From: Lachnospiraceae bacterium
GTDB lineage: Bacteria > Bacillota > Clostridia > Lachnospirales > Bianqueaceae
Reading direction: 5' to 3'
Length of the DNA stretch: 64,000 nucleotides
Assembly (NCBI GenBank): GCA_022794035.1
Contig: JAAWDX010000003.1
Location: 310,001 to 374,000 of the forward strand
Below are positions 99-23,390 of the stretch, piece after piece. Every line of letters starts with the position of its first letter. The stretch's first letter is position 1. Below the pieces are notes generated by a model that ran no database searches, was not told where the DNA came from, and worked only from the letters and a program-made list of their open reading frames with translations. The translations under genes and the position numbers were made by a program.

Positions 99-917
99 AT
101 GAAACTCATATCATGGAATGTCAACGGATTAAGAGCTTGTATGCAAAAGGGGTTCAAAGAGTTTTTTGATGCCTCGGATGCGGATTTCTTTTGTTTACAG
201 GAGACAAAGCTGCAGGAAGGCCAGATTGATTTTGCACCGGAAGGATATTATGCATACTGGAATTATGCTGAAAAGAAGGGGTATTCTGGTACTGCCATTT
301 TTACTAAGCATAAGCCTTTGCGTGTGAGCTATGGGATAGGCATTGAAGAGCATGATCATGAAGGGCGCGTGATCACATTGGAATATGAAAACTTTTATGT
401 GATCACCGTGTATACGCCTAATTCCAAGCGAGAGCTCCTGCGCCTTCCGTATCGGATGATTTGGGAGGATGATTTTTTAGCATATTTAAAAAAGCTTGAA
501 ACTGTTAAGCCAGTTATTTATTGTGGAGACCTTAAGACTGAGCACTCATCATATACATCAGATGTGAAAAGAAAACCGGTGATTATTTGTGGTGATCTGA
601 ATGTGGCAGCTGCCCCAATAGATTTGCGCAATCCTAAATCAAACGAACGAAACGCTGGATATACTCCCGAGGAGAGGGAAAAAATGCGCTGCCTGCTAGA
701 ATCTGGATTTGTAGATACGTTTCGCTATATGTACCCTGATAAGCAAGAATTTTCTTGGTGGAGTTATATGCGCAATTCAAGAGAAAAGAATATCGGTTGG
801 CGCATTGATTACTTTCTGATATCCGAATTTGCAAAATCCAGTATCAAAGATGCAGGAATTATGACGGATATTTACGGCTCCGATCATGCACCGGTATTAC
901 TTGATGTGGACATCTAG
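99..917 (+). CDS. exoA: Exodeoxyribonuclease III, host-phage hybrid
   Basis: Xth/ExoA-type AP endonuclease and 3'-5' exonuclease for base excision repair. The ATG at 99 is preceded by GAGGAAG; the GTG at 87 lies in that RBS. Seen: MKLISWNVNGLR, QETK, a first CGDL (residues 142-145), a second ICGDLN (163-168), FSWWSYM, WRIDYF and SDHAP near the end. Residues 1-145 are host. From the AA at 534-535 the frame continues into phage DNA, which adds a 13-residue linker, repeats the KPVIxCGDL strand and supplies a complete C-terminal half. The product is 272 aa against about 251 for the reconstructed uninterrupted gene. The catalytic Asp-Asn pair therefore comes from the phage copy. Whether the 22-residue insertion is tolerated is inference. 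Confidence 0.93.
   Translation: MKLISWNVNGLRACMQKGFKEFFDASDADFFCLQETKLQEGQIDFAPEGYYAYWNYAEKKGYSGTAIFTKHKPLRVSYGIGIEEHDHEGRVITLEYENFYVITVYTPNSKRELLRLPYRMIWEDDFLAYLKKLETVKPVIYCGDLKTEHSSYTSDVKRKPVIICGDLNVAAAPIDLRNPKSNERNAGYTPEEREKMRCLLESGFVDTFRYMYPDKQEFSWWSYMRNSREKNIGWRIDYFLISEFAKSSIKDAGIMTDIYGSDHAPVLLDVDI
512..560. other. attL: attL, left prophage junction
   Basis: Host exoA sequence ends at GACCTT and phage sequence begins after the shared AA at 534-535. Joining the phage half here (536 onward) to the phage half left of 50067 gives a dyad: AGTGC, six bases, AA, six bases, GCACT, with the symmetry continuing outward (ATATGATA against the complement of CATCATAT). That is the expected form of attP for a large serine integrase with a central dinucleotide. 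The exact cut position is inferred. Confidence 0.8.
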
Positions 918-2477
918 GACAAATTGGCCTTCAGAATCCCGGCTATAATCAATCTTCTCAATGATATTTTTTAAAAATTGATTTTTATCTTGTGCATCAA
1001 TTTCATCGTCCTGCAGCGATTCCAATGCATCGGAAAGCAGCAGGACTTTTTCCTCATACTCAACTTTTTCCGGCATGGTGCTTTCTATTTCCGCGATTTG
1101 CTGCTCAATTGATTCGATCGTTGCATTATGTTTTGACTTTCTTTCCAAAAATTCATTTGATGTGTAGATTCCGTTTTCGTAATCATCAAACGCTTTCTCG
1201 AGTTTTCGCTTTGTAGCTTTTAATTGTGCCTGAAGCTTGTCTATTCGATCGATAAGGGCCCCTTCATCTACATCAGGAAGATTATCCACTTTAACCTCAA
1301 AATCATCTATATATAGTTTTAAACACTGCGTAAGGGCATCCATAACGTCATTAACCGCTGCGGATTTAACAGTACAAAACTGAGATAGGGGATGTGTATA
1401 TCTATCTCGAGTATTTCCCTTATGTTTGCTGTAGTGCATCATTTTGCCGCAGCTCTTGCATGCGAGTAGACCGGCCAGCGGATTGATCAGTTTTAATCCG
1501 CTTTTTGTTTTGTCTGTTTTGAAATCTTTATTTGCTTCCATGAATGTCTCCTCATCGACCATTGCTTCGTGTTTTCCATCAAATAGCATATAGTGCTCTG
1601 TATGATTTGATCTCGGTCTGCTAGTTTTAAGTTTGCCATCTACCATTGTTTTAATCCGCATTCGATCATTCCAACGGACTTTTCCCATATTTACCGGATT
1701 CATTAGAATTGATTTCACGCTGTCTTTTGACCATTCCAGTTCGCCTCTATATGTTGGAATGCCCATTGAGGTCAGGCGCTTGGCGATTTTACCGGGGGAC
1801 ATTTTTTCTTTTATACGCCACTCGTACATCATTTTCCCAACATCAAATTCCTGCGGATGCGGCGTTAGAGTTCGGCTTCGTTTTGATTTTATGATATTCC
1901 AGCCATATGGTCGATAGCTACCCATATAGTTTCCCTCAACGACAGCCTGTTTCCGGCCCCGGTCAAGTCGTTTTTGAATCATCTTGTATTCGCGGCGGCT
2001 CATGAATAATTCAAATTCCATGTACTCTTCATCATCTGAATTGTGCGCTACGTCATATGTTTTTGTTGGCGTTACGACCAGCAGGCCGGTGTTGTTGTTT
2101 GCATACTTTAGGCAGTCTATTATCTTCTGGGCATCCCCTTGATTACCTCGCGACAATCTGGTTACTTCTACAATAATAATCCCTCGATATAGCCCAGCAT
2201 AGCAATCAGCGATCAGTTTTTGAATTTCTGGCCTTGCCTCTATTGTTTCTCCGGAAACGATCTCGGAATAGATTTTGCCAACGTATAGGCCTTTTTTCTC
2301 GGCCAGTTCAATCAGTATTTCTTTATGCCGTTTTAGAGTTTCACCGGCACCCATTGCCTCCGCCTCTATGTCTTTTCTTGATTTTCGAAGATAGATTGCA
2401 TATATATCCATCTTAGGAGGCAGAGTGTTGTCTATGATTCTATTTGTGTCCAATGTATTTATCATGCTCACTTTCAA
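897..2477 (-). CDS. int: Large serine recombinase (phage integrase)
   Basis: Site-specific recombinase that integrates and, with a directionality factor, excises the phage. Seen: N-terminal resolvase domain with YLRKS (catalytic Ser33), SGETIEARP and VTRLSRG; recombinase domain at about 190-300; zinc ribbon with C340, C343 and C368; and a charged coiled coil at about 405-480. At 526 aa the length fits the family. A TTG start is taken because GGAG lies 12 nt upstream and the promoter's predicted start of transcription is near 2497; ATG at residue 5 is the alternative. Its 3' end overlaps hybrid exoA by 21 bp, convergent, as expected for an integrase gene beside attP. Confidence 0.95.
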   Translation of the reverse strand: MKVSMINTLDTNRIIDNTLPPKMDIYAIYLRKSRKDIEAEAMGAGETLKRHKEILIELAEKKGLYVGKIYSEIVSGETIEARPEIQKLIADCYAGLYRGIIIVEVTRLSRGNQGDAQKIIDCLKYANNNTGLLVVTPTKTYDVAHNSDDEEYMEFELFMSRREYKMIQKRLDRGRKQAVVEGNYMGSYRPYGWNIIKSKRSRTLTPHPQEFDVGKMMYEWRIKEKMSPGKIAKRLTSMGIPTYRGELEWSKDSVKSILMNPVNMGKVRWNDRMRIKTMVDGKLKTSRPRSNHTEHYMLFDGKHEAMVDEETFMEANKDFKTDKTKSGLKLINPLAGLLACKSCGKMMHYSKHKGNTRDRYTHPLSQFCTVKSAAVNDVMDALTQCLKLYIDDFEVKVDNLPDVDEGALIDRIDKLQAQLKATKRKLEKAFDDYENGIYTSNEFLERKSKHNATIESIEQQIAEIESTMPEKVEYEEKVLLLSDALESLQDDEIDAQDKNQFLKNIIEKIDYSRDSEGQFVLDVHIK

Positions 2478-15026: not shown

Positions 15027-15121
15027 GCGTATCGATCTTTATCGTGCTGGCCGGGTTTAAACTGGCGAGGATGGCGGCAAGGAGAATGGAGGCAGGAGCA
15101 TTACATGAATGCAGTGATTAA
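15020..15121 (+). CDS. 33-aa membrane peptide
   Basis: MLSVSIFIVLAGFKLARMAA gives one short hydrophobic helix, then a basic end. CAAGGAG precedes the ATG. It overlaps both neighbours. Its reality rests on RBS and context only. Confidence 0.4.
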   Translation: MLSVSIFIVLAGFKLARMAARRMEAGALHECSD

Positions 15122-15941
15122 ATATCCCGGCAGCAAGTGGTCAATAGCAAACTGGATTATTTCATTTTTTCCTAAACATCATAGTTATCTGGAACCGTTT
15201 TTTGGGTCAGGAGCTGTTTTATTCAACAAGCCAAGATCGAATATAGAAACAGTAAATGATATGGATGGGTCGGTAGTGAATTTGTTCCGGTGGATTAAGA
15301 ATGATCCTGAAAAGCTGGCGCATGAAATATATTATACGCCATACTCTAGACAGGTTTATGACGATTCGTTTAAATCGGTACCAGATGATAGTCTACAGCG
15401 TGCAGTAAATTTATGTGTTCGGTTAAATATGGGGCATGGGTTTAGAACAAATGGTAAAAAAGTAGGATGGAAAAATGATATTCAGGGAAGGGAACGTGCA
15501 TACGCAGCCTTGGATTGGTCAACGATGCAAGACAGAATTATGACTGCTGCTGAACGGCTAAGAGGTGTACAGATTGAATGCAAACCGGCAATAGATGTTA
15601 TAAAACGGTTTAATTTTGATAATGTGCTGATATACGCTGATCCCCCGTATGTGCTATCTACTAGGCACGGAAAGCAATATAAACATGAAATGGATGATGA
15701 CGATCATGAACAACTGCTACAATCGTTGTTAGCCCACAAGGGCCCCGTGATAATAAGTGGATATGATAGCGATGTGTATAATGATTTATTAAAAGGCTGG
15801 TACCGAAAACATCAAACGGCATATTCACAGGTTTGTAGTAAAAAAGATGAAGTAATCTGGATGAATTTCAGACCAGACGATCAGATGCGATTGGATGAAA
15901 TGGCTGAGGCCGAGGAGGAAAAAGAATGGAATATGAATTGA
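15105..15941 (+). CDS. D12-class N6-adenine DNA methyltransferase (Dam-like)
   Basis: 278 aa. Seen: N-terminal IKYPGSKW and the FGSGAVLF SAM-binding loop, VNDMDG, and catalytic DPPY in LIYADPPYVLS. GGCAGGAGC lies upstream. It methylates adenine in phage or host DNA, probably against restriction or to mark replication. The target cannot be read from the sequence. No matching restriction gene is nearby, so it is an orphan methylase. Confidence 0.95.
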   Translation: MNAVIKYPGSKWSIANWIISFFPKHHSYLEPFFGSGAVLFNKPRSNIETVNDMDGSVVNLFRWIKNDPEKLAHEIYYTPYSRQVYDDSFKSVPDDSLQRAVNLCVRLNMGHGFRTNGKKVGWKNDIQGRERAYAALDWSTMQDRIMTAAERLRGVQIECKPAIDVIKRFNFDNVLIYADPPYVLSTRHGKQYKHEMDDDDHEQLLQSLLAHKGPVIISGYDSDVYNDLLKGWYRKHQTAYSQVCSKKDEVIWMNFRPDDQMRLDEMAEAEEEKEWNMN

Positions 15942-19732: not shown

Positions 19733-20065
19733 ATGAAGATCAATGTACTTGGAACTATATATGACTTAATCGAGTCCAGTGCGGCAGAAGATGAAAATTT
19801 GGCCGAAATGGATGGATATTGCGATACAAGTGCGAAACTATGTGTTGTTGATGATATGAAAAATGCTGCTAAGGAAAGTTTCTCGAAAAAGAATTTAGAT
19901 GAATACAAAAATGGCACCAAGAGACATGAATTGATTCATGCCTTTATGTATGAATCTGGTCTTGACGCAAATAGTTTTTGGGCGCAGAACGAAGAGTTGG
20001 TGGATTGGATTGCGCTGCAGTTTCCGAAAATGAAAAAAGCATTCGAAGAGGCCGGTTGTCTGTAA
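19733..20065 (+). CDS. Small zinc metallopeptidase-like protein
   Basis: 110 aa with HELIH in KRHELIHAFMYESG, followed by EELVDW as a possible third ligand, so a compact zincin. AAGGAG lies 10 nt upstream. Similar proteins occur near phage terminases. It could be an ImmA-like protease, but no repressor gene adjoins it. First gene of the late region. Confidence 0.8.
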   Translation: MKINVLGTIYDLIESSAAEDENLAEMDGYCDTSAKLCVVDDMKNAAKESFSKKNLDEYKNGTKRHELIHAFMYESGLDANSFWAQNEELVDWIALQFPKMKKAFEEAGCL

Positions 20066-20087: not shown

Positions 20088-20651
20088 GTGAATATAATCG
20101 AAAAAAAATTAAACGAGATAAAGCCGTATGAAAAAAATCCAAGAAGAAATGACGACGCAGTAAAATATGTCGTTGAATCAATCAAAGAATTTGGATTTAA
20201 GGTGCCGATCATAATTGATAAGAACGGAATCATCGTTGCTGGTCATACCCGGTACAAAGCGGCAAAAAAGCTAAACATGGAGAAGGTTCCCTGCGTTATT
20301 GCTGATGATCTGACAGAAGAACAGGTAAAGGCGTTTCGATTGGCTGATAACAAAACCAGCGAGATGGCAGCATGGGATTTTGACCTGCTTCACGAAGAAT
20401 TGGATGAATTGCAGCAGTTTGATTTTTCGATGGAAGACTTCGGATTCTATAACAATTTCAATGACGATGAATTCGATGATCTGTTTGAAAGCAAGGCAAA
20501 AGAGCAGACAGAAAGCAGAAAGGACGAATCAGCAGATGATTTTTCCGGGCAGTGGAAAGTCATTGTACGTGCAGAGAGCGAAGAAGAGGCGCAGGAAATT
20601 GCAGAACTGCTGAATGAAAGCGGTTATGAATGCGAGGTTATGCGGATATGA
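20088..20651 (+). CDS. ParB/Srx-domain protein, possibly DpdB-like
   Basis: 187 aa, GTG start. N-terminal ParB-like domain: NEIKPYEKNPRRND, VVESIKEFGFKVPIIIDKNG, IIVAGHTRYKAAKKL (GHTR motif), FRLADNKTSE. A ~30-aa C-terminal alpha/beta segment follows (WKVIVRAESEEEAQEIAELL). Similar proteins often accompany phage DNA methylases. Here it directly precedes a QueD-like gene and a DpdA-like transglycosylase. In bacterial Dpd systems DpdB is a ParB/sulfiredoxin-type ATPase needed with DpdA, so an equivalent role is a reasonable inference. Confidence 0.88.
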   Translation: MNIIEKKLNEIKPYEKNPRRNDDAVKYVVESIKEFGFKVPIIIDKNGIIVAGHTRYKAAKKLNMEKVPCVIADDLTEEQVKAFRLADNKTSEMAAWDFDLLHEELDELQQFDFSMEDFGFYNNFNDDEFDDLFESKAKEQTESRKDESADDFSGQWKVIVRAESEEEAQEIAELLNESGYECEVMRI

Positions 20652-20986
20652 TGCAGATTATTACTTTTAATCAGATTATCGGGTGTCATAACTGGCCCGG
20701 TGCTCCTGAGAGATATGCTTATTTGAGGAATACGCACCGCCATGTGTTTCATGTGCGCTGCTGGTTTTATGTTGATCATTCGGACCGGCAGATCGAGATA
20801 AACGATATGCAGCAGATCATTGAATATGAATTTACAAAAAAATGGAGCCTGAAAGGGGAGGGAAAAGGCTTTCAGTTTGGAGCAATGAGCTGCGAAGACA
20901 TTGCGAAGTGGTGCGTTGATACATTCGAATGCGAAGCCTGCGAAGTGATGGAAGATGGGTTTGGTGGAGCTTATGTTAGGCGCTAA
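20648..20986 (+). CDS. QueD/PTPS-like T-fold protein
   Basis: 112 aa. Zinc triad of the 6-carboxytetrahydropterin synthase fold: H14 in GCHNW, H30 and H32 in THRHVFHVR, then a DM..II segment and a final EDGFGGAYV. The catalytic Cys that normally lies just before HxH is absent (YLRNTHRH), so it may not perform the QueD reaction and could act on a 7-deazaguanine. GAGG is 10 nt upstream. It overlaps both neighbours within the deazaguanine cassette. Confidence 0.75.
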   Translation: MMQIITFNQIIGCHNWPGAPERYAYLRNTHRHVFHVRCWFYVDHSDRQIEINDMQQIIEYEFTKKWSLKGEGKGFQFGAMSCEDIAKWCVDTFECEACEVMEDGFGGAYVRR

Positions 20987-21878
20987 CTGTAAAGTGCATT
21001 TCGCGGGTTCTGATAATAGCGTGCCGCATCTGGCAAGCAGTAATGTTGCGGGAGTAAACTACCAGCTCTTTACTTGTTATCCATTCATCGCAAACAAAAA
21101 ACCGGAAGATGATTTTCGATTTGGTGAAGGTGATTTATTTGTTCCTAGATGGGTGCAGCAACTGCGCAAGCATGTTATCATGGATTCTGGTCTATTTACC
21201 CTTATGTTTGGGGCGAAGAAAAATGAGAAGCAGACTATTGAAACGCTAACAGCATGGCAAGACAAAACAGCAAAGTTTGTAAGGCAGAATAACCTCACTT
21301 GTACTTGCGTTGAAATTGATTGCCAAAAGGTGCTTGGCGTTGATGAGGCATGGTATTTCAGGAGGAGAATGAAAGAGGTTATGCCAAACAACCGGCATAT
21401 CAATGTTTTTCATTTAGAAGATGGAAGGAAAGGACTCGACAGGCTCATTGAGTTTTCTGAATATATTGCAATATCAGTGCCGGAGCTGCGCATTCATAGG
21501 CCGAAGTCGTACAAATACGAAGTCACATGGTTAGCAAACTATATTAAGAACAAAAAACCGAGTATTGATATTCACCTGCTGGGATGCACCGAAAAGGGAT
21601 TGCTTGAGCAAAATAAATTTTGTACAAGCGCAGATTCTACTAGCTGGCTTTCTTCTGTGAGGTATGGGAATTCCAACTACAAAAGATACAATATCAACCA
21701 GCTTAGGCAAGAAAAACGACTGCAAGTGCGTCCATTATTGCAGGCTGAATATGATAAGTACAAAACGCCTTCCATGCAGGCGATGAGCGACAAAAAAATA
21801 AAGTATATTGAAGATTGCTATTTTTCGGCTGTTTTTTGCAAAACTATGTACGAAAAATCAGTTGGACCGCAAGATTGA
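20973..21878 (+). CDS. dpdA: DpdA-like DNA guanine transglycosylase
   Basis: 302 aa, related to tRNA-guanine transglycosylase. Seen (from ATG 20973): MDSGLFTLMFG at 70-80 (the DSG motif of the TGT pocket), CVEIDC at 112-117, IHLLGC at 200-205 and SADSTSW at 219-225. Phage DpdA enzymes swap guanine in DNA for a 7-deazaguanine, protecting the genome from nucleases. The neighbours (two T-fold-like genes, ParB-like, YhhQ-type transporter) support DNA rather than tRNA modification. The modified base made here is unknown. Confidence 0.8.
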   Translation: MLGANCKVHFAGSDNSVPHLASSNVAGVNYQLFTCYPFIANKKPEDDFRFGEGDLFVPRWVQQLRKHVIMDSGLFTLMFGAKKNEKQTIETLTAWQDKTAKFVRQNNLTCTCVEIDCQKVLGVDEAWYFRRRMKEVMPNNRHINVFHLEDGRKGLDRLIEFSEYIAISVPELRIHRPKSYKYEVTWLANYIKNKKPSIDIHLLGCTEKGLLEQNKFCTSADSTSWLSSVRYGNSNYKRYNINQLRQEKRLQVRPLLQAEYDKYKTPSMQAMSDKKIKYIEDCYFSAVFCKTMYEKSVGPQD

Positions 21879-21930
21879 TCAATGACAGAGAGCTGCAAAG
21901 CCGCTCTATTTTTATTTGGAGGAATTATGC

Positions 21931-22422
21931 ATGTGTAAAATGACTAAAATGACGACGAAAGATGCGATGGGCATAGCAATAGAGCAGGCCCGAAAAACGA
22001 TGAATGAAAATATTGGCGGTCCCTTTGGGGCGGCCATTTTTGATGAACACGGAAATTTGATTGCAGTAAATAGCAATAGAGTTTTGCAAGACCACGACCC
22101 GACGGCGCACGCAGAAATCACGGCCATTCGAGAGGCGTGTAAGAAATTAGGCACACATGACCTTTCCGGCTGCATTATGGTTGCGACTGGCTACCCCTGC
22201 CCGATGTGCCTTGGGGCGATGATTTGGGCAAACATTAAAACGTGTTATTATGGCTGCACGCCAAAGGATGCCGAAGCAATAGGATTTCGAGATGAATTTA
22301 TCTATGAGTTTATCAAAGGAAAATGCAGCGATACCAATGTATTGAAATTCGAGGAATCGCAGCGGGAAAACTGCTTGCAGCTCTTTGAAGAATATCATAA
22401 AAAAGAAAAGGAGTTATATTGA
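21931..22422 (+). CDS. guaD: Guanine deaminase
   Basis: 163 aa zinc cytidine-deaminase-fold enzyme: IGGPFGAAIFDEHGNLI, DPTAHAEITAIREAC (H60, E62), YPCPMCLGAMIWA (C90, C93), then GFRDEFIYE. It is close in pattern to B. subtilis guanine deaminase rather than tRNA or cytidine deaminases. It converts guanine to xanthine and ammonia. ATG 21931 lies 9 nt after GGAGG. It sits inside the deazaguanine cassette, and guanine is the base released by DpdA exchange. Confidence 0.88.
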   Translation: MCKMTKMTTKDAMGIAIEQARKTMNENIGGPFGAAIFDEHGNLIAVNSNRVLQDHDPTAHAEITAIREACKKLGTHDLSGCIMVATGYPCPMCLGAMIWANIKTCYYGCTPKDAEAIGFRDEFIYEFIKGKCSDTNVLKFEESQRENCLQLFEEYHKKEKELY

Positions 22423-22730
22423 TGATTGAAAACATTTACAAAGTGAAATCTATTGAGATCGAAGCAAGTGCAAAGTGTTTTTGCCCGCTGGGGCAGGATT
22501 GGTACACAAACCAGTTTTGCATTTATATGGATCCTGGTCAAAAAATTCCGGACTACTGCGATATTGACAGATGGATTCGTGAAAATCTCAACGGTCAATC
22601 ACTGATCATTGAGGATGCCACAAACAGGTTATATCAGCATGTTATGAAAGAATACGAGCCGTTTTTCTGTAGTATTGATAATTGTGTTGAAGATGCCAGA
22701 CACAGCAAGGTTACAATCACGGTTGAGTAA
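22422..22730 (+). CDS. QueF/QueD-like T-fold protein (tentative)
   Basis: 102 aa. AKCFCPLGQDWYTNQF recalls the Cys-containing CPxTGQPD segment of QueF, and DARHSKVTITVE fits a T-fold ending. It is shorter than QueF (~150 aa). AAAGGAG lies 8 nt upstream and the start is coupled to the deaminase stop (TGATG). It probably acts on a 7-deazaguanine (reduction, decarboxylation or similar). The assignment rests on short motifs and on its neighbours. Confidence 0.55.
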   Translation: MIENIYKVKSIEIEASAKCFCPLGQDWYTNQFCIYMDPGQKIPDYCDIDRWIRENLNGQSLIIEDATNRLYQHVMKEYEPFFCSIDNCVEDARHSKVTITVE

Positions 22731-22742
22731 GGAGAAAAAGCA

Positions 22743-23390
22743 ATGAATAAGAAAGTCAGTATTTTGCAGCTTTTGTTGACGCTGCTTTTTGTTGTTAGCC
22801 TTTTGATCAGCAATATCATCACAGGAAAACAGATTCAGCTTCCGTTTGATATTACGATGACAGGCGCTATTTTCATATTTCCTGTCACCTATATTCTCTC
22901 GGATGTGTTTTCGGAGATATACGGCTACAGATGGAGCCGCATAACATGCTATCTGGCGTTTGCAGCTAACTTGTTTGCAGTTATTATGTTCAGCATTGTT
23001 ATTGCAACGCCTGCGCCCGGCTACTGGCCGAATCAAGAAGCGTTTGAAACAGTGCTAGGAAATTCGCCGAGGATTCTGTTTTCTTCCCTTGCGGCTTTTG
23101 TAATTGGCGACCTTGCGAATGACCTTGTTTTCAAGAAAATGAAAAGCAAGCATCCAAATGATCATAAAGGATTCGGCTTCCGTGCTATTTTATCTAGTTT
23201 CTGCGGGGAGCTGGTGGACAGTTTAGTATTTTTACCGCTGGCGTTTTTGGGTACTATGCCAGTATCAACGCTAGTTACAATGACGATTTTACAGGTATTT
23301 TTGAAAACAGGTTATGAGATTATAGTGCTACCGATTACACACTTGGTTGTTAAGAAAGTCGGTAAATATGAAATGAAGATAGCAAAATAG
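22743..23390 (+). CDS. yhhQ: YhhQ/QPTR-type queuosine precursor transporter
   Basis: 215 aa with about six membrane helices. Signature region PVTYILSDVFSEIYGYRWSR and a later GELVDSLVFLPLAF match the VUT/QPTR family, which imports preQ0, preQ1 or queuine. AAGGAG lies upstream. A phage copy beside DpdA suggests that the phage relies on salvaged 7-deazaguanine, consistent with the absence of folE, queE and queC here. Confidence 0.93.
   Translation: MNKKVSILQLLLTLLFVVSLLISNIITGKQIQLPFDITMTGAIFIFPVTYILSDVFSEIYGYRWSRITCYLAFAANLFAVIMFSIVIATPAPGYWPNQEAFETVLGNSPRILFSSLAAFVIGDLANDLVFKKMKSKHPNDHKGFGFRAILSSFCGELVDSLVFLPLAFLGTMPVSTLVTMTILQVFLKTGYEIIVLPITHLVVKKVGKYEMKIAK

Follow-up and report, generated by a model that had tools for sequence, protein, structure and literature searches.

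A salvage-type DpdA cassette of a Lachnospiraceae prophage in which a QueD-fold protein probably replaces QueC

Which 7-deazaguanine base would a phage insert into its DNA, and where would it obtain this base, when its modification cassette lacks FolE, QueD and QueE but includes a VUT transporter? This question is raised by positions 20088–23390 of a 64,000-nucleotide stretch of a Lachnospiraceae bacterium genome (hereafter 'the window'; assembly GCA_022794035.1, contig JAAWDX010000003.1, positions 310,001–374,000), in which six tightly spaced open reading frames (ORFs) of a prophage lie on one strand, directly ahead of the genes for the small and large terminase subunits. We propose, with a probability of about 0.6, that this is a salvage-fed DpdA cassette of a temperate phage, in which a QueD-fold protein replaces QueC and plain 7-deazaguanine is inserted. 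What was computed comprises gene families, folds, gene order, the mutual exclusion of QueC and the QueD-like gene, and host gene content; from these we infer the reaction, the inserted base, the imported compound and the protective role. An earlier interpretation made from the letters alone (the sequence-only reading) had correctly described six consecutive, partly overlapping genes, missing folE, queE and queC, but overlooked the replacement of QueC by the QueD-like gene across the family, which is the most informative part.

Relatives of the window DpdA were drawn from IMG/VR, from bacterial genomes and metagenome-assembled genomes (MAGs) of Oscillospiraceae, Veillonella, Thermoguttaceae, Bacteroidales, Treponema and Cruoricaptor, and from one phage record (Roos), and one profile per gene was run over the 200 loci, 155 of them distinct. 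Dozens of loci, in viruses and prophages of several bacterial phyla, share the order ParB, QueD-like gene, DpdA, after which an optional VUT transporter, QueD, QueE, FolE and then the terminase usually come. Most relatives encode FolE-QueD-QueE, including a canonical QueD beside the QueD-like gene (identities of QueD, QueE and FolE were verified on representative loci). Not one locus carries both QueC and the QueD-like gene. Flanks of no less than 450 bases upstream and 2.5 kb downstream of dpdA are available for 88 loci, of which 64 carry the QueD-like gene alone, four QueC alone, none both and 20 neither (Fisher p = 0.0046); when QueE is also required, the corresponding counts are 54, three, none and three (Fisher p = 0.0006). 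As for the three QueE loci with neither gene, one is cut at a contig end (L131), one contains a decayed QueD-like frame, recognized by eye (L057), and in the last the gene is located further off (L177). The four QueC loci (L041, L051, L052 and L110) all encode a QueC protein scoring over the TIGR00364 cut-off, all lack the QueD-like gene, and are placed apart in a quick DpdA tree (short search), requiring four changes. At the scale of whole records, a search for QueC with PF06508 retrieved nothing over the cut-off in any of 23 records, among them the complete Roos, phiST, MA9V-3 and X1, and a second one left 22 of 24 records without a match over the cut-off, the positives being CAjan, used as positive control, and L110.

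QueE makes 7-carboxy-7-deazaguanine (CDG), and QueC converts CDG to preQ0 (PMC6884629). As QueC is absent while FolE-QueD-QueE are present in most loci, synthesis stops there at CDG, and since the QueD-like gene and QueC are mutually exclusive, the QueD-like protein most simply uses CDG. Proteins of its family, PHROG 17812, probably consume CDG in place of QueC, the reaction being most likely a decarboxylation to 7-deazaguanine, and would in this way probably change which base is inserted. The pocket of QueD-type proteins binds a pterin similar in shape to CDG, and the decarboxylation of CDG to 7-deazaguanine requires neither ATP nor an extra enzyme. In the mechanism that we propose, the phage VUT transporter would import the base or a precursor, the QueD-fold protein would remove the carboxyl group of CDG in QueC's place, and DpdA would, after replication, exchange guanines of the phage DNA for the resulting base, which would be plain 7-deazaguanine (dDG) and not preQ0; DNA modified in this manner would most likely resist restriction. 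A predicted CDG decarboxylase has reportedly been named DpdL by Cui in 2023, in a study said to report both dDG and dCDG. DpdL would resemble the QueD-like protein in its proposed chemistry and, reportedly, in its Cellulophaga phage context.

PHROG 17812 is annotated 'unknown function'. The AlphaFold model of the window protein (pLDDT 92.3) matched E. coli QueD and related synthases best among PDB structures (probability 1.00; TM 0.57–0.70 among the leading matches, and 0.63–0.70 for the best ones, to E. coli QueD), and hhalign aligned its family with phage QueD (probability 89, E = 2.4e-6); a PDB profile search with the QueD-like alignment returned no relevant match from sequence alone. The QueD-like call of the sequence-only reading is thus borne out by fold and profile comparison. 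The aligned family retains the three zinc-site histidines and the late glutamate, and misses the Cys and the Asp-His that are conserved in the phage QueD set. Because of these missing residues, model and alignment point to a QueD-fold protein that is not itself a QueD. An ordinary QueD feeding preQ0 synthesis of the host would have the same fold, but the loss of Cys and Asp-His, the canonical QueD also carried by most relatives and the lack of QueC in the host make this option highly improbable.

The QueD-like gene runs into dpdA, with translational linkage of the two in most loci, and salvage loci that lack a pathway to CDG have it too. Both features would suit a QueD-fold protein that handles CDG otherwise, either by handing it to DpdA, which would yield DNA with dCDG (reportedly a phage base, according to the same 2023 study), or by acting as a subunit or specificity factor of DpdA. 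However, the gene also occurs with other, unrelated DpdA-like families (phiST, MA9V-3 and X1), and some phages carry it at a distance from dpdA, an arrangement more in keeping with a pathway enzyme than with a subunit of one DpdA. DpdA, moreover, occurs without a QueD-like partner in four lineages, and we regard this alternative as rather unlikely. The DpdA-like proteins near the QueD-like gene of phiST (L036, 7774–8553) and MA9V-3 (L037, 6782–7576) belong to PHROGs of unknown function (20335 for phiST), and a kinase-like ATPase gene stands between the DpdA-like and QueD-like genes.

The transglycosylase itself has PHROG 887 as its sole good PHROG match, a family to which the DpdA of Escherichia phage CAjan is also assigned (8e-96); hhalign of its profile against CAjan DpdA gave an E-value of 1.6e-4 but a probability of 50%. 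With its AlphaFold model (pLDDT 90.6, pTM 0.89), all 50 matches listed by Foldseek against the PDB were TGT (best E = 9.8e-6, probability 1.00, TMq 0.52–0.58). D77-S78-G79 and D227 do not vary among 31 relatives; CAjan has a matching DSG and D-S-S, as mapped by alignment. From sequence alone, a PDB profile search with the DpdA alignment yielded no relevant match, and when hhalign was used to compare this profile with the individual sequences of the host TGT and of the X1 and phiST DpdA-like proteins, it yielded short, insignificant matches only, those to X1 and phiST falling around the LLG...DS motif. Family match, predicted TGT fold and catalytic motifs together identify the protein as a DpdA, and the structure comparison with the TGT/DpdA family suggested by the sequence-only reading agrees with its assignment. 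The prophage genes probably swap guanines in phage DNA for 7-deazaguanine bases. In other loci, dpdA appears as a tandem pair at a contig start (L131, 1–1620) or as broken or split frames (L057, L058 and L054, from Thermoguttaceae and Treponema MAG prophages).

The host genome encodes TGT, QueA and its own second VUT. This would be in line with a transglycosylase that acts on tRNA or is non-functional, the phage DNA staying unmodified and the cassette aiding queuosine salvage by the host; likewise, Mycobacterium phage Orion encodes DpdA, yet no 7-deazaguanine was detected in it (PMC6884629). However, the active-site motifs are kept in dozens of viruses, the host needs no second TGT, and the nearest proven homologue, CAjan DpdA, acts on DNA: in CAjan, the DNA modification seen by liquid chromatography–mass spectrometry was lost upon deletion of dpdA (Hutinet et al. 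2019, PMC6884629). Such a role on tRNA, or none at all, appears quite improbable.

Neither the window phage nor, it appears, its host encodes the known steps that lead to CDG. The transporter scores well over the TIGR00697 cut-off (100.3 versus 50.95 bits) and under the stricter PRK11212 preQ0/preQ1 equivalog, so that it is of YhhQ type, as had been read from the sequence. In the host genome, neither QueF nor a QueD over the cut-off was found; two ATP-pyrophosphatase-like ORFs of 316–356 aa passed the Pfam cut-off for QueC with 25 and 30 bits and were judged not to be QueC on account of their length and weak score. Since the phage lacks FolE, QueD and QueE, and the host lacks QueF, QueD and a convincing QueC, the base or a precursor would have to be imported, and import by the VUT transporter is proposed because neither partner makes the base. 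Together with a cassette that combines DpdA, a transporter and a QueD-fold protein, this host gene content upholds the salvage-fed system put forward earlier. We regard the locus as a real salvage-type DpdA cassette, the function of its QueD-like member being suggested by comparison with other loci.

Several observations weigh against the insertion of plain 7-deazaguanine through a QueD-fold substitute for QueC. The two Fisher p values (0.0046 and 0.0006) ignore shared ancestry, the QueC loci number just four and the tree search was short, so that the exclusion rests on complete non-overlap and separate tree placement. Position 174 of DpdA is Ser in 78 of 78 loci with the QueD-like gene, whereas the four loci with QueC have Gly, Gly, Ala and Ser, and CAjan has Gly, a pattern consistent with a pocket change; Ser174 is also found, however, in the 15 salvage-only loci, including ones without the QueD-like gene, and residue 174 is therefore no simple report of the inserted base. 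The window transporter clusters with those of two loci lacking the QueD-like gene, in a tree whose very long branches make this a hint only. A defective or silent prophage is also conceivable, and the case of Orion counts here as well. The main difficulty for a pure CDG decarboxylase is that the QueD-like gene persists in salvage loci, which have no known CDG source; this could be explained if CDG were imported, or if the protein had a second role alongside DpdA. A broader version, in which the widespread PHROG 17812 would put the QueD fold to a second use, as a phage substitute for QueC that turns the inserted base from preQ0 into 7-deazaguanine, DpdA position 174 shifting with it, and in which the window phage would salvage the substrate while guanine deaminase drives the exchange, seems to us unlikely as a whole.

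The other members of the cassette are less widely shared or less specific. The identity of the ParB-like protein is firm (table 1), and of the 80 relatives that could be tested, 75 have a ParB gene upstream of dpdA, within approximately 1.5 kb. A similar ParB domain occurs in 471 phage records, only one or two of which contain this DpdA. In bacterial Dpd islands, DpdA is accompanied by a ParB-like ATPase, DpdB, needed for base insertion (PMC12839542), and the window likewise has a TGT homologue beside a ParB-family protein; unlike these islands, it possesses neither DpdC nor other dpd genes, and its ParB is of a small nuclease/partition-like kind that is common in phages. Of the parallel with DpdB drawn by the sequence-only reading, the ParB-family domain (PF02195) stands, whereas a specific DpdB equivalence is unsupported, this domain being too common in phages.

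A guanine-deaminase-like identity was confirmed, 1wkq being the closest solved homologue and the zinc motifs HAE and PCPMC (PCxxC) being present. The deaminase and orphan genes are absent from the other relative loci, their only further copy being on a viral contig near-identical to this part of the prophage (L002, IMGVR_UViG_3300006213_000288), and a single pathway made up of the six genes together is not supported. It is possible that the deaminase removes the guanine released by the exchange, a role for which we know of no precedent. The orphan, first taken for a second T-fold protein, has no match in Pfam, PHROG (E < 0.05), NCBIfam or the PDB, nor in phage, plasmid or same-family genomes; its hhalign probability to QueF (1.2) lies within the range of its shuffled copies (up to 5.9), so that the T-fold assignment is not supported. 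Comparisons with QueF, FolE and QueD gave no signal, and an apparent QueF-like CPxGQ motif was dropped.

Among known phages, Faecalibacterium phage Roos has ParB-like, QueD-like, DpdA and VUT genes in the same order as the window, without deaminase or orphan. CAjan shares a DpdA of PHROG 887 (306 aa) and a putative preQ0 transporter nearby, but has QueC with FolE/QueD/QueE, makes dPreQ0 and bears neither a QueD-like partner nor ParB beside dpdA. Cellulophaga phage phiST has the QueD-like gene, next to QueD-QueE-FolE, but a different DpdA-like family, and synthesizes CDG. The comparison as a whole gives a testable function to the unnamed PHROG 17812, which spans several bacterial phyla and accompanies DpdA-like proteins of more than one family. 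It also yields a rule by which the 7-deazaguanine base of a phage would be predicted from gene content, according to whether the QueD-like partner or QueC is present. A DpdA system is furthermore located in prophages of gut Firmicutes, in which hosts that make no preQ0 would depend on salvage.

The prophage spans approximately 0.9–47 kb of the window, from a serine integrase to an endolysin, within a 2.3 Mb bacterial genome assembly of 16 contigs. Between these ends are encoded a repressor-like regulator, RecE/RecT, a dUTPase, terminase, portal, major head and tape measure proteins, in accordance with the temperate phage recognized earlier; host ribosomal protein genes start at approximately 51 kb, as read by eye, and no direct repeat longer than 10 bases was found as attachment site. 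The cassette's position ahead of the terminase is kept in relatives and would suggest modification before packaging.

Table 1. Coordinates, in the window, of the cassette genes and of the integrase.
Feature	Position	Strand	Basis or remark
Serine integrase	900–2477	-	one end of the prophage
ParB/Srx N-domain protein, 187 aa	20088–20651	+	PF02195 1.5e-9; PHROG 620 1.5e-57
Predicted QueD-fold protein (TfoldA), without QueD catalytic residues	20630–20986	+	PHROG 17812 1.5e-13; AlphaFold model
DpdA, DNA-guanine transglycosylase family, 307 aa (301 aa from start 20973)	20955–21878	+	PHROG 887 4e-21; TGT fold
Guanine-deaminase-like protein (likely start 21934)	21916–22422	+	PF00383 8.2e-23; PDB 1wkq 5.8e-32
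Orphan small protein	22419–22730	+	without family match
YhhQ/VUT-family queuosine-precursor transporter, 215 aa	22743–23390	+	PF02592 1.2e-40; TIGR00697

Just upstream of the cassette, at 19733–20062, a small protein with a HELIHAF metallopeptidase-like motif (PHROG 1233) is encoded. The same prophage also carries a D12-class N6-adenine methyltransferase at 15105–15938 (PF02086 6e-27; PHROG 56), possibly a second DNA modification of this phage.

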